From contig JAOAHS010000019.1 in NCBI GenBank assembly GCA_026415135.1, forward strand, positions 1-50,440: a DNA stretch of 50,440 nucleotides, in the 5' to 3' direction. The notes under the pieces were generated by a model that saw only the letters and a program-made list of their open reading frames with translations, was not told the DNA's origin and made no database searches. This DNA is from Calditerrivibrio sp. Its GTDB lineage: Bacteria; Chrysiogenota; Deferribacteres; Deferribacterales; Calditerrivibrionaceae. The translations under genes were made by a program, and so were the position numbers. Below are positions 4,183 through 43,852 of this stretch, piece after piece. Position 1 is the stretch's first letter. Each line of letters starts with the position of its first letter.

Positions 4183-5340
4183 ATGAACGCTGTTATGAAC
4201 ACGTATAATAGATATGATATTGCATTCATAAGAGGGGAAGGGTCATATCTCTATGATAAAGATGGGAAAAGATATGTGGATTTTGCCTCTGGTATAGCTG
4301 TGACTAATCTTGGCCACTCCAACGAAAAGATAGCTTCTGCTTTGTATAGTCAGGCAAAAACTTTGATTCATACTTCAAATCTTTATAAAAACCCTTTACA
4401 GGAAGAGGTTGCAGAGGTTATCTCCAAGCTCAGTTTTGGTGGTAAAGTGTTTTTCTGTAATTCGGGTGCAGAAGCGAATGAGGCTGCATTGAAGTTAGCA
4501 AGGATCTATGGGAATAAAAAATTTGGTGGAAAACGTTATAAGGTAATCACAATGTTAAACTCTTTTCATGGCAGAACTTTTGCTACACTTTCTGCGACTG
4601 GCCAAGATAAGGTAAAGAAAGGTTTTGAACCTACTCTTAGTCATATTTTCCATATCCCTTTTAATGATATTGGCGCTTTAAAACATGCCATTGATGATGA
4701 AACGGTTGCTGTGATGCTTGAGGTGATTCAGGGCGAGGGTGGGGTTATCCCAGCTGATAGATCTTATCTTAAAGCTGTTCGCGATATATGTTCTGAAAAG
4801 GATATTTTACTTATATTTGATGAGGTACAAACAGGTATCGGAAGAACTGGCGAGGTTTTTGGTTATCAGGTTTATGGGGTTGAGCCTGATATCTTTACCC
4901 TTGCCAAAGCTCTGGGTAACGGTTTCCCTGTTGGAGCTATGGTGGCAAAACCTCAAGTGGCTGAATACTTAAGTCCCGGAACGCATGCTTCCACGTTTGG
5001 TGGAAATTACTTAGGTTGTGCGATTGCAAAAACCGTCTTGGAGATAGTTTCTGACGAAGTTTTTTTGTCAACTGTTAGAAAAAAAGGTGAATACTTGATG
5101 GAGCAGCTAAAAAAGATTGTATCAGATAAAGCAATGGTCAGAGGTATGGGGATGATGGTGGGTTTGCGATTGGATGATGGAATTTCAATGGCTGATTTCG
5201 TTATAAAAGCCAATGAACGTGGCTTACTGACCGTCCCAGCTGGGGATAATACTGTCAGAGTATACCCAGCTTTGAACATAGATTATAATGTTATAGATGA
5301 AGGTATAGAAATATTAGAAAAAATTTTTCGGGAGATCTGA
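4183..5340 (+). CDS. argD: Acetylornithine aminotransferase
   Basis: A 385-residue PLP-dependent class III aminotransferase that converts N-acetylglutamate semialdehyde to N-acetylornithine in arginine synthesis; it may also act in lysine synthesis as a succinyl-diaminopimelate aminotransferase. Visible family features are FCNSGAEANEAALKLAR (PLP phosphate site), FHGRTFATLSATGQ, the Asp in FDEVQTGIGRTG and the PLP lysine in TLAKALGNGFPVGAM. Full length. The start has TGGAGG upstream with good spacing. It leads an argD-argF-argG run; its stop overlaps the argF start. Confidence 0.95.
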   Translation: MNAVMNTYNRYDIAFIRGEGSYLYDKDGKRYVDFASGIAVTNLGHSNEKIASALYSQAKTLIHTSNLYKNPLQEEVAEVISKLSFGGKVFFCNSGAEANEAALKLARIYGNKKFGGKRYKVITMLNSFHGRTFATLSATGQDKVKKGFEPTLSHIFHIPFNDIGALKHAIDDETVAVMLEVIQGEGGVIPADRSYLKAVRDICSEKDILLIFDEVQTGIGRTGEVFGYQVYGVEPDIFTLAKALGNGFPVGAMVAKPQVAEYLSPGTHASTFGGNYLGCAIAKTVLEIVSDEVFLSTVRKKGEYLMEQLKKIVSDKAMVRGMGMMVGLRLDDGISMADFVIKANERGLLTVPAGDNTVRVYPALNIDYNVIDEGIEILEKIFREI

Positions 5341-40197: not shown

Positions 40198-41166
40198 ATG
40201 GGTTTTTTTGATGTTTTTAAGAAAAATGAGGAAAAGAAAGCTCAGAAGGATGAGTTGGGGTTGTTGGAAAGGCTGAAATCTGGTTTGGCGAAAACATCTA
40301 CAAAACTGGTGGGAGGGCTAGAAAACATTATTTTTGGTAAAAAGAAGATAGATGCCGAATTGTTTGATGAACTGGAGGAGCTTTTTATCACTGCCGATGT
40401 TGGTGTTAATACAACTTTGAAAATTATTGAAAAAGTAAAAAGCGATGTATCCCGGAATGTTTTAAAAGACCCCTCAGAGCTAAAAAATGCTATTAAAAAT
40501 GAGTTGATAAATATTTTAAGTATCAAAAATGAATTAAATACAACAGAAGATAAGCCTTTTGTCATGTTGATTGTAGGGGTAAATGGTACTGGTAAGACGA
40601 CAACTATTGCTAAATTAGCCAATATGTTTAAAAATAACGGATATTCGGTAATTTTAGCTGCTGGTGATACTTTTAGGGCAGCAGCTATAGAGCAGTTGCA
40701 GGTCTGGGGAGATCGTGTGGGTGTTCCTGTGATTAGGCAGTCTGAGGGGAGTGACTCGGCTGCAGTCATTTTTGATGCTGTTGAGTCTGCCAAAGCTAAA
40801 GGGGTAGAAATTGTTATTGCAGATACTGCCGGTAGGCTTCATAATAAATTCAATCTTATGAATGAGTTAAAGAAAGTTGTAAAGGTAATAAAAAAAACTA
40901 TTCCAAGTGCTCCCCATGAGGTATTGTTGGTAATAGATGCTACCAGTGGTCAAAATGCCATAGAGCAAGCGAGAAGATTTAAAGAAGAGATAGGGGTGAC
41001 AGGCATTGTTCTTACCAAGCTTGATGGAACTGCAAAAGGTGGTGTCATTGTGGGTATAGTGGATGAAACTGGGATACCTGTAAAATTCATAGGTTTTGGT
41101 GAAAAGATGGATGATTTGAAGCCTTTTGATGCCAAGCTTTTTGTGGATGCTCTTTTTGATAAGTAG
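40198..41166 (+). CDS. ftsY: Signal recognition particle receptor FtsY
   Basis: A 322-residue GTPase docking SRP-ribosome complexes at the membrane. The acidic A domain is nearly absent (about 20 residues); the N domain (about 25-115) and G domain are complete: [15 protein letters not shown] (G1), [47 protein letters not shown] precedes the ATG. First of four closely spaced genes ending with the ROK kinase. Confidence 0.96.
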
Positions 41167-41173
41167 GTTGTAA

Positions 41174-41941
41174 ATGTTTGATAGGGAACTTTTTCGTTGG
41201 TTATATTTGGAGAATGATCGATCGGATATATACTCTCCGGTTGTCTGGAATGGCTACCAGCTTAATTACTTTGACTATGCTGGTGAGAGTTTTATCATAA
41301 AAGATGATTATAAGCCCATTGACGCCCTGTACTTTTCTATAAACTTTTATAAAAAAGGTGAATTAAACCTTATACACCTATCAAATCTGGCGTGTATTGT
41401 TCAAAAGTTAGGTGTGTTGTTTTCCGATATAGATCTTTTCAAGAAGTATGGAATAAAAAGCAGTTTTGATTTTGAACTACTGCTTTATTTTAATAAATTG
41501 CCTGATAAATTAAAAAAATACCTGTCCGAGAAGGAAGTATCCCTAAAATATATAAAACAGATTAGGTCTTTAAGCCACGATACTTTGATCCATCTGGTGA
41601 ATTTTGTTGAACGCTTCCCATCTTTGGGAGAATTTAGGGGTTTTTTAAATGATCTTTTTGATTTTGGAGGTGTGATTGGAGGGGATTTGGGACAGCTTAA
41701 ACTGATTAAAAGGAAGAGGGATGAGGAATATTATACTTTTCTGGAATCTTTTAATAAAATACTTATGGGATTTAAACATGTTCAAGTCAGAAATAGTAAC
41801 AACTTTGAAAAAAGTGAGCTTATAATCTCCTTTTCCATAAGCAATATCGATGACCTGTATAAGGCATTGGATGAGCTAACATATAACACTGATAACTTCA
41901 AAAAGCTCTTTTCTCTGATGGAGGATTATGGTATTTCTTAA
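41174..41941 (+). CDS. Unknown protein with ParB-HTH-like middle
   Basis: A 255-residue protein I cannot name. Residues about 58-135 ([20 protein letters not shown], then the helix before [33 protein letters not shown]) follow the layout of the ParB/Spo0J helix-turn-helix: a helix, recognition-like helix, LPxxLKxxLxxxxxSLxxxxxxxSL. There is no ParB N-terminal CTPase motif (GERR). The C-terminal third is charged. It overlaps the SPL-family radical SAM gene by 14 bases, so the two are probably functionally linked. Confidence 0.6.
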
Positions 41942-42950
41942 TAAAAAATGTCTTGGAGGCTACTTCCATAGGTTATTTGAAAAGAAGGGGATAGCTTATT
42001 ATCCCGTTTCATCTGAAGATGAGATCGAGGATTGTAAAAAAAACATATACATCACTTCCCAGAAAAACAGGTTTGTTCACAAATGCCCCGGCACAAAAGA
42101 ATATAGATGTTGTAACTATATGGTAGTGGATGTAGTTGAAGGTTGTCCTTTTGACTGCTCTTATTGTATCTTGCAGGTTTACCTGAATAATGATTTTATA
42201 AAAGTCTATGACGATCTTGAAGAAATAATATATAATGTCAAACAACTGGATAAAAAAGGGCGTTTTAGGTTAGGTACAGGGGAGTTATCAGATAGCCTTG
42301 CTCTTGATCATATTTTGTATTTGACAGACTTTTTTATCCCACTCATTAACGAATGTGAAAATATCCGGTTTGAATTTAAAACCAAATCTGATAATATTAA
42401 AAATTTATTCAATCATGATCCGAAAAATATTTTAGTTTCATTTAGCTTAAATCCCCAGGAGATAGTATCCAGTGAAGAACATTTTACAGTATCGGTAAGT
42501 AGAAGAATATTTGCAGCTAAAGCTTTAACTGAATATGGTTACAAAGTGGGCTTTCATTTCGATCCCTTGATAGATTGGGATAACTTTGAAGGATTATACG
42601 CTGATCTTATTGAGGATCTGTTTGATAATATAGCTGAAAAAGATGTGGAATTTATTAGTATTTCAAGTTTTAGGTTTATTCCTGAGCTTGCAGATATTAT
42701 CAGGATAAAGTTTCCCCACACCAAGATCTTAGCTAATACTTTTGTGAAATCCCTTGATGGTAAGATGAGGTATTTTAAAGGTAAAAGGTTTAAAATGTTA
42801 AGTTTTATATATTCCAAAATCAGATCGAGCTGGAAAGATGTATTTATTTATTTCTGCATGGAGGATGAAACTATTTGGAGAAGAGTTATAGGCTATGATC
42901 CCGGTGATAGAGAAAAGTTTGAAGCATATTTTAATTGGAAAAGAGTATGA
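41928..42950 (+). CDS. SPL-family radical SAM protein
   Basis: A 340-residue radical SAM enzyme related to spore photoproduct lyase (SplB). The segment VHKCPGTKEYRCCNYMVVDV, then EGCPFDCSYCILQVYLN (cluster Cys 73, 77 and 80) closely follows the SPL pattern. The region equivalent to the SPL catalytic Cys (CTSDxVGIEH in Bacillus, from memory) reads ELSDSLALDH, so that Cys is absent. The organism has no visible sporulation genes; a non-spore DNA repair or other radical reaction is possible. ATG follows GGAGG at only three bases. ATGA-coupled to the ROK gene. Confidence 0.85.
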   Translation: MVFLNKKCLGGYFHRLFEKKGIAYYPVSSEDEIEDCKKNIYITSQKNRFVHKCPGTKEYRCCNYMVVDVVEGCPFDCSYCILQVYLNNDFIKVYDDLEEIIYNVKQLDKKGRFRLGTGELSDSLALDHILYLTDFFIPLINECENIRFEFKTKSDNIKNLFNHDPKNILVSFSLNPQEIVSSEEHFTVSVSRRIFAAKALTEYGYKVGFHFDPLIDWDNFEGLYADLIEDLFDNIAEKDVEFISISSFRFIPELADIIRIKFPHTKILANTFVKSLDGKMRYFKGKRFKMLSFIYSKIRSSWKDVFIYFCMEDETIWRRVIGYDPGDREKFEAYFNWKRV

Positions 42951-43852
42951 ATGTATTATCCATCGATATAGGCGGGACTAACGTTAAGTATGGTTTCTTC
43001 AAGGTCTTGGATAAAGACAATGTGGAGTTACAAAACTTTAGTTTTTTTAAAACACCAAAAGATTTTAATGAGTTTGTGCTTAGGATAGAGGAATGTACAA
43101 AGCATACTGCTTTTGATGTTGTAAGTGTTGCAATACCTGGGGTTTATGATTTTATAAAGGATGAGATTATTTATGCTCCTAATATTCAGTTTTTAGATGG
43201 TATAAAAATAAAAACCTCTTTTAATGAAATGTTAAGGTGTGATGTTTTAGTAGAAAATGATGGTAATCTAGCTGCTTTGGGTGAATATTTTTTTGTAGAA
43301 AAGTCAAGTATAAGGGATTTTGTGTTGGTTACATTGGGTACTGGTGTAGGAGGTGGAGTTATTTTCGATGGGAAAATCCTATCTGGTAAGACTACAATAT
43401 CGGAGATAGGACATATCACCATAAATTTTAATGGAAGAAAGTGTGGTTGTGGCAAGATGGGCTGTTTTGAGGCGTATTGTGGTATGGGTGGTTTGATTGA
43501 AACATATAAAGAAGTTTCAGGTCTTTATGTTTCTAAGGCGGATGAGATTTTTAAAAAGTGTTCCAATAAGGATGTTTTAGCAAAGATAAGTGTGGACATA
43601 TTTGCTTATCATTTAGCGTCTGGTTTAGTGTCTATAGCCAATATCTTTGCTCCCGAAATTATTAAGATAGGTGGAGGTCTTTCTTTTAGTAGTAATCTTT
43701 ATTACAGAAAAACTATAAGGTATTTTTCTAAAATGATCTTTCCTGCGTTTAAAACAAAGACGAAGCTATCCATTGCAGAGCTAAGAAATAATGCGGGGAT
43801 ATATGGGGGTGTAGCTTTAGCTTTGATGTCTTGTAGCTTAAAAAAAACTTGA
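42947..43852 (+). CDS. ROK family sugar kinase (glucokinase-like)
   Basis: A 301-residue ROK protein without a DNA-binding domain. SIDIGGTNVKYG (phosphate-1), VENDGNLAALGEY (catalytic Asp), VTLGTGVGGGVIFDGKILSG, and the zinc-binding GHITINFNGRKCGCGKMGCFEAYCG are all clear. It is likely an ATP-dependent glucokinase or N-acetylsugar kinase. The ATG at 42947 overlaps the upstream stop; an earlier in-frame ATG at 42935 lies within the SPL gene and is less likely. Confidence 0.9.
   Translation: MNVLSIDIGGTNVKYGFFKVLDKDNVELQNFSFFKTPKDFNEFVLRIEECTKHTAFDVVSVAIPGVYDFIKDEIIYAPNIQFLDGIKIKTSFNEMLRCDVLVENDGNLAALGEYFFVEKSSIRDFVLVTLGTGVGGGVIFDGKILSGKTTISEIGHITINFNGRKCGCGKMGCFEAYCGMGGLIETYKEVSGLYVSKADEIFKKCSNKDVLAKISVDIFAYHLASGLVSIANIFAPEIIKIGGGLSFSSNLYYRKTIRYFSKMIFPAFKTKTKLSIAELRNNAGIYGGVALALMSCSLKKT

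Follow-up and report, generated by a model that had tools for sequence, protein, structure and literature searches.

What does a radical SAM enzyme of the spore photoproduct lyase (SPL) family do in the Deferribacterales, and does it act together with the protein encoded immediately upstream of it, here called UP? We analyzed a stretch of 50,440 nucleotides from Calditerrivibrio sp., referred to in whole as the window, together with its host genome (1.98 Mb in 63 contigs, 99.96% completeness) and homologous loci from many phyla. The UP and enzyme frames overlap by 14 nt, with UP upstream. The features considered are:

40198..41166, + strand: ftsY, upstream neighbour, common to most of the Deferribacterales (profile matches)
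41174..41941, + strand: UP, ParB-derived predicted partner of 255 aa, CTPase domain lost (ORF, profiles, AlphaFold2 model)
41357..41671, + strand: UP residues 62-166, predicted ParB/Noc/KorB-type helix-turn-helix domain (AlphaFold2 model, VIA-align)
41771..41938, + strand: UP residues 200-255, predicted C-terminal beta-beta-alpha region, which aligns with the dimerisation domain at the ParB C terminus (model, hhalign)
41928..42950, + strand: SPL-family radical SAM protein of 340 aa (ORF, Pfam, PDB, AlphaFold2)
42084..42086, + strand: Cys53 codon, candidate relocated H-atom donor, aligned with S76C of PDB 4rh0 (alignment)
42108..42113, + strand: Cys61-Cys62 codons, additional conserved cysteine pair (alignment)
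42144..42167, + strand: radical SAM CxxxCxxC motif (Cys73, Cys77, Cys80), including the invariant Tyr79 (alignment)
42282..42284, + strand: Glu119 codon at the canonical SPL H-donor site, Cys140(Gt)/141(Bs) (alignment)
42855..42857, + strand: Cys310 codon within an invariant Cys-Met-Glu motif (alignment, 67/67)
42935..43852, + strand: ROK-family kinase, found downstream in some of the Deferribacterales (profile matches)

In the Deferribacterales, UP and the enzyme are vertical, single-copy genes beside ftsY. This placement is common, with rearrangements: the two genes are separated in a few Mucispirillum-type genomes, and in family f5 (L069, L070, L071, L073 and L100) the block stands before ftsY, in the order UP-enzyme-ftsY, which means that the two genes move together. 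No parA was found among the labelled neighbours of the window pair, and the canonical ParB of the window genome is encoded elsewhere (G000:C1). Searches of defence-system, phage and NCBIfam libraries yielded no defence family for the window pair; an anti-phage role, which we also considered, was rejected in view of the single copy and the conserved place.

The two protein folds

A sequence-only reading of this DNA had claimed that the radical SAM enzyme keeps the SPL framework, and this is borne out at the levels of family, sequence and fold. The window enzyme passes the Pfam SPL model (PF20903; E 1.3e-22, 80.6 bits, cut-off 27), has Geobacillus SPL as its sole significant PDB relative by sequence (E 5.7e-16) and yields an AlphaFold2 model (pLDDT 95.5) whose best fold match is SPL 4fhf at TM 0.78, the six top matches all being SPL entries at TM ~0.78. 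It fails TIGR04070, the model for spore photoproduct lyase proper, with 95.8 bits against an equivalog cut-off of 400, and three homologues reach 124.9-127.9 bits against the same cut-off. In a tree with nine paralogues, the UP-linked enzymes group together; support is weak (87/86) and the branches leading to the paralogues are long.

Residue conservation was assessed across 67 aligned homologues drawn from many phyla. Cys53, Cys62, Cys73, Cys77, Tyr79, Cys80, Glu119 and Cys310 are fixed in all 67, and Cys61 is found in 62. It should be considered that the loci were gathered by two peptide patterns, one including G[TS]GEL and the other DC[STA]YC, and because these contained the residues concerned, the invariance of Glu119, Tyr79 and the cluster cysteines is in part a product of the selection; Cys53, Cys62 and Cys310 are invariant independently of the patterns. 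Tyr79 is the equivalent of Tyr96(Gt) and is thus kept. At the site of Tyr99(Bs)/98(Gt), the homologues carry Ile (51), Val (11) or Phe (5); in Gt SPL, Y98 serves SAM regeneration (PMC3742179).

Two side observations concern related enzymes. Loci L290-L300 hold several further SPL-like radical SAM subfamilies that are without UP, and in some of these Glu occupies the canonical donor-Cys site. In genome G215, a diverged enzyme of the group (L300, L301) has Leu at the Glu119 site and is without the CPG/CC motif; this genome also has a half-length UP match and perhaps carries a second version of the pair.

The sequence-only reading had also stated that the hydrogen-donating cysteine of Bacillus SPL is absent. 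As an observation this stands, since the alignments place Glu119 at the canonical donor site (C140 Gt = C141 Bs), but it does not imply that the enzyme lacks any H donor. In a profile alignment, Cys53 lies opposite the Cys at position 76 of 4rh0 (KCPGTKEY vs SCKPSAEY), an entry described in the PDB as the SPL C140A/S76C mutant. The SPL of Clostridium acetobutylicum is reported to repair the photoproduct by means of a conserved cysteine, C74, that projects to the opposite side of the pocket (PMC5368176). We infer that C74(Ca) is equivalent to S76(Gt), 4rh0 being the sequence aligned. The alignments suggest that the donor in the window enzyme has probably moved to Cys53 rather than been lost, and because other SPLs use the site of Cys53 for the donor or have had a cysteine engineered there, the absence of C141 does not disqualify the enzyme as a lyase.

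For UP, the earlier proposal was a ParB-like layout minus the CTPase domain. The window UP alone has no match at all in Pfam, NCBIfam or the PDB, and a profile of 34 Deferribacterales UPs did not find ParB in the PDB or Pfam. In other phyla, the enzyme is preceded by UP homologues of 300-360 aa, and four of the ten proteins scanned (L167, L165, L133 and L151) score above the Pfam ParB_N cut-off; L165 also matches phage families that resemble ParB and the ParB portion of a model for a methyltransferase. When a cross-phylum profile of 47 UPs, built with SPL frames set apart, was compared with the PDB, ParB 7o0n (E 2e-21) and Noc 7ng0 (E 2.2e-21) were recovered. Alignment by hhalign of the order-level UP profile with eight ParB-motif ORFs of the loci covered the helix-turn-helix and C-terminal regions with a score of 44.6 (probability 77%), and the controls (reversed, shuffled and unrelated profiles) reached a maximum of 20.1, where at most 18 of the 20 column shuffles were valid.

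The structural comparison points the same way. In the AlphaFold2 model of the 255-residue protein (pLDDT 90.3, pTM 0.70), residues 62-166 match the ParB/Noc/KorB DNA-binding domain (7bnr and 7bnk, VIA-align Z 9.4), and the top 14 VIA-align rows contain ParB-family chains only. Plain Foldseek ranked the same family first, at an E of just 0.05. In the C-terminal region, the hhalign alignment with ParB runs through the dimerisation domain, and no ParB structural match is listed there. As judged from the profiles and the model, UP is a ParB-family protein with a ParB/Noc/KorB-type helix-turn-helix and, in the window, without the CTPase domain, as had been proposed; the window UP retains the C-terminal dimerisation domain less surely.

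Co-occurrence of UP and the enzyme

Both genes are present in 42 of 45 Deferribacterales genomes and neither in the remaining three, which are only 57-86% complete. Outside this order, the enzyme was scored as an SPL match of at least 250 bits and UP as a match to profile position 300 or higher; the latter limit was set after canonical ParBs were seen to end earlier and was then held fixed for the third-phylum sample. In the second phylum, where 80 of 98 genomes entered the UP search, 47 genomes had both, none the enzyme only, one UP only and 32 neither (Fisher p 1.5e-21), with weaker SPL matches in G095, G116 and G119 scored as negative; if these are counted, the numbers become 47, 3, 1 and 29. 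For the third phylum, with criteria preset, the corresponding numbers among 60 genomes were 8, 0, 1 and 51 (p 3.5e-9). Here, too, weaker SPL matches (G215, G233 and G211) were scored as negative, and the sole UP-only genome has an enzyme score just below the limit. The pair recurs in other phyla, which places it far beyond chance.

Gene order is also conserved. Of 80 loci spread over many phyla, 51 have UP directly upstream of the enzyme; a script counted 50 of these, and L111 was added after extension of its frame. In the 50 script-counted loci the median gap is 7 nt, with 19 overlaps. It is the only widely shared neighbour, being found in 40 of the 62 clustered loci outside the order (including L171, where UP is 3 kb away), while the next family reaches 12. 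Within the second phylum, UP immediately precedes the enzyme in 31 of 47 genomes and 16 are arranged otherwise; in 14 of the 47, the two genes are more than 40 kb apart or on separate contigs. Of the 27 genomes in which UP does not stand right next to the enzyme, the strict criterion locates a UP at another site in 18 (that of L171 lies 3 kb upstream), a further three yield strong UP matches that end before the limit, and six have no UP anywhere. The co-occurrence of UP and the enzyme is thus near-obligate, even where they are unlinked, with exceptions in Omnitrophota and a few further cases. Neither of the two outcomes that would have overturned the sequence-only reading, an unconserved neighbourhood or an upstream protein with no DNA-binding fold, was observed. 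No UP accompanies the SPL-like paralogues, which belong to other subfamilies. The two proteins probably work together on a common task.

In one clade of Neomarinimicrobiota (L136, L140 and L176, SPL start near 4878), a same-strand frame of ~1150 aa takes the place of UP and ends 6 nt before the enzyme; two of these three genomes have a UP-like match elsewhere.

Proposed function and alternatives

Starting from the two folds, which homology and modelling show, and from the observed near-obligate co-occurrence and residue changes, we propose, with about even confidence, a two-protein system in which a radical SAM enzyme for nucleic-acid repair or modification is served by a ParB-derived partner. 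The SPL-fold enzyme would generate a 5'-deoxyadenosyl radical at a [4Fe-4S] cluster held by Cys73, Cys77 and Cys80, and the radical would abstract hydrogen from a base or base adduct in nucleic acid, most likely DNA. Hydrogen would be returned from Cys53, at the Gt S76 position, rather than from the C141 position, which holds Glu119. UP descends from ParB and comprises the helix-turn-helix and the C-terminal domain, the CTPase domain being present in some UPs and absent in others. It would bind the enzyme, probably by way of the C-terminal domain, and position the enzyme on its substrate. The motifs that UP keeps in most other phyla could allow NTP-gated clamp action, and in the Deferribacterales UP may have been reduced to an adaptor. 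The lesion or base repaired or modified would not be one caused by UV in spores. In this scheme, we infer the physical complex, the nucleic-acid substrate, the role of Cys53 and the repair or modification itself. Replacement of the SAM-regeneration Tyr98(Gt) in all 67 enzyme homologues counts against the proposal.

How far UP still acts on DNA should be considered in view of its variation between lineages. The CTPase motifs (GxRR, EN) are found in none of 16 Deferribacterales UPs and none of 8 Neomarinimicrobiota rows, whereas in other phyla 18 of 23 rows keep G-x-[RK]-R and the same number keep [ED]N; loss of the ParB CTPase domain is, by these alignments, lineage-specific. The domain has also been lost in short UP ORFs of only 174-205 aa from Binatota, Desulfofervidaceae and relatives (L137, L138, L155, L161 and L164), which are missing the first half of the helix-turn-helix region as well. 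As these match only the second part of the profile, the CTPase domain is dispensable and the C-terminal region common to all UPs. In Desulfococcus, a 453-aa open frame (L147:1-1359) fuses the UP C-terminal domain to an SPL-like enzyme; the frame starts at the edge of a single draft contig, and the genome additionally encodes a full UP. Across 47 homologues, Glu212 is the sole invariant UP residue (47/47). The Deferribacterales UPs are acidic, with a median pI of 5.2 (16 rows) and a net charge of +1.5 in the helix-turn-helix region, while the median is 7.9 in other phyla and seven of eight canonical ParBs have a pI >9. Because of this acidity, DNA binding by the Deferribacterales UPs is doubtful. 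The DNA-targeted pair put forward by the sequence-only reading is therefore upheld as regards coupling, given the co-occurrence and adjacency; DNA targeting is suggested only by ancestry, and the acidic UPs speak against it.

The same acidity makes it a serious, if tentative, possibility that UP no longer binds DNA and is an adaptor or chaperone for enzyme stability, or a carrier or target of the chemistry, as in a maturase and its protein partner, with the ParB fold reflecting ancestry only. The loss of the CTPase motifs in both lineages, the invariance of Glu212 and the C-terminal region being the part retained in the short homologues and the fusion all agree with such a role. It is harder to reconcile with the retention of both motifs and the higher pI in other phyla, and with the fact that the Deferribacterales UPs have retained the helix-turn-helix region at all.

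A more doubtful elaboration of our proposal is that a ParB-type NTP-gated DNA clamp loads the radical SAM enzyme on the chromosome, a sliding clamp thus bringing radical chemistry to bases in a widespread, UV-independent pathway of base repair or modification, with the switch later lost in the Deferribacterales and others.

The pair could also be a true lyase of spore photoproduct or UV lesions in non-sporing bacteria, with UP as a DNA-binding helper. The SPL fold and best match, together with a cysteine at the alternative donor position, would suit such an enzyme, and the active Clostridium SPL likewise has its cysteine away from the C141 site. However, SASP genes were found in 0 of 59 genomes, while the Bacillus subtilis positive control was detected; spore photoproduct should not form. 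DNA photolyase (PF00875) is absent from the nearly complete window genome (G000) and present in all three congeners searched. In the Mucispirillum-type family f6, 0 of 15 genomes have photolyase and 13 of 15 have the pair; in family f3, the numbers are 0 of 4 and 4 of 4. We take both families to be animal-gut dwellers. Photolyase was also tried as a sign of light exposure and set aside, as its presence does not track the pair. The failure to find SASP and the persistence of the pair in gut lineages that have no photolyase make repair of UV or spore damage unlikely. The low TIGR04070 score and the missing SAM-regeneration Tyr argue in the same direction, and photoproduct repair by this pair is disfavoured.

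It is still less probable that UP regulates transcription, either of the enzyme gene or of a regulon, and does not cooperate physically with the enzyme. A ParB-type helix-turn-helix and an adjacent gene order with UP first would be expected of a regulator, and KorB is a ParB-family repressor. A regulator would, however, hardly account for a pair that is kept even when unlinked (the 16 of 47 genomes noted above), for a C-terminal region that is the most widely conserved part of UP or for short homologues without the first half of the helix-turn-helix region. That the two are ordinary house-keeping neighbours with no functional link, as their vertical, single-copy inheritance beside ftsY in the Deferribacterales might suggest, is very improbable, being contradicted by the co-occurrence in three samples, unlinked cases included, and by the SPL-like paralogues of other subfamilies that are without UP.

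Relation to known systems

Both folds are known, and their pairing is new to us as far as our literature search goes; the UP-enzyme pair was unreported in open-licence PMC, which does not prove absence. Bacteria that never sporulate commonly carry SPL relatives, and a near-obligate partner offers a handle on their use. ParB, now viewed as a general nucleotide-switch fold, would thereby join the proteins that may steer radical enzymes, in a lineage that dropped the CTPase domain yet kept its partner.

SplB-like photolyases are reported to share operons with SOS-response proteins of the ImuB-C type (PMC3765255). As in the window, an SPL-like enzyme is there paired with another protein, in that case one linked to DNA damage, so a DNA-linked partner of such an enzyme would have a precedent; the partner there is, however, an ImuB-C domain and not a ParB relative, and Pfam finds no such domain in UP. 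The orphan ParB-CTPase-fold proteins of a 2025 ParB-fold survey (PMC12704722) resemble UP in being ParB relatives outside parAB with other tasks. The words 'radical SAM', 'photoproduct' and 'lyase' are absent from its main text, and its searches, run with PF02195/TIGR00180 at cut-off, would not pick up the Deferribacterales UPs.

With ParB, Noc and KorB, UP shares the predicted helix-turn-helix domain and, by profile alignment, the C-terminal dimerisation domain, and UPs of other phyla also share ParB_N. The window UP differs from them in its acidity, in the lack of the CTPase domain and motifs and in its place beside a radical SAM enzyme. The enzyme, in turn, is like SPL (SplB; PF20903, TIGR04070) in its radical SAM fold, its CxxxCxxC motif, Tyr79 at Tyr96(Gt) and a cysteine at S76(Gt), and unlike it in having Glu at C140(Gt), no Tyr98(Gt), the extra Cys62 and Cys310 and a near-invariant Cys61. 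Its hosts differ as well, since SASP was not found in them and the enzyme is accompanied by a near-obligate ParB-derived partner.
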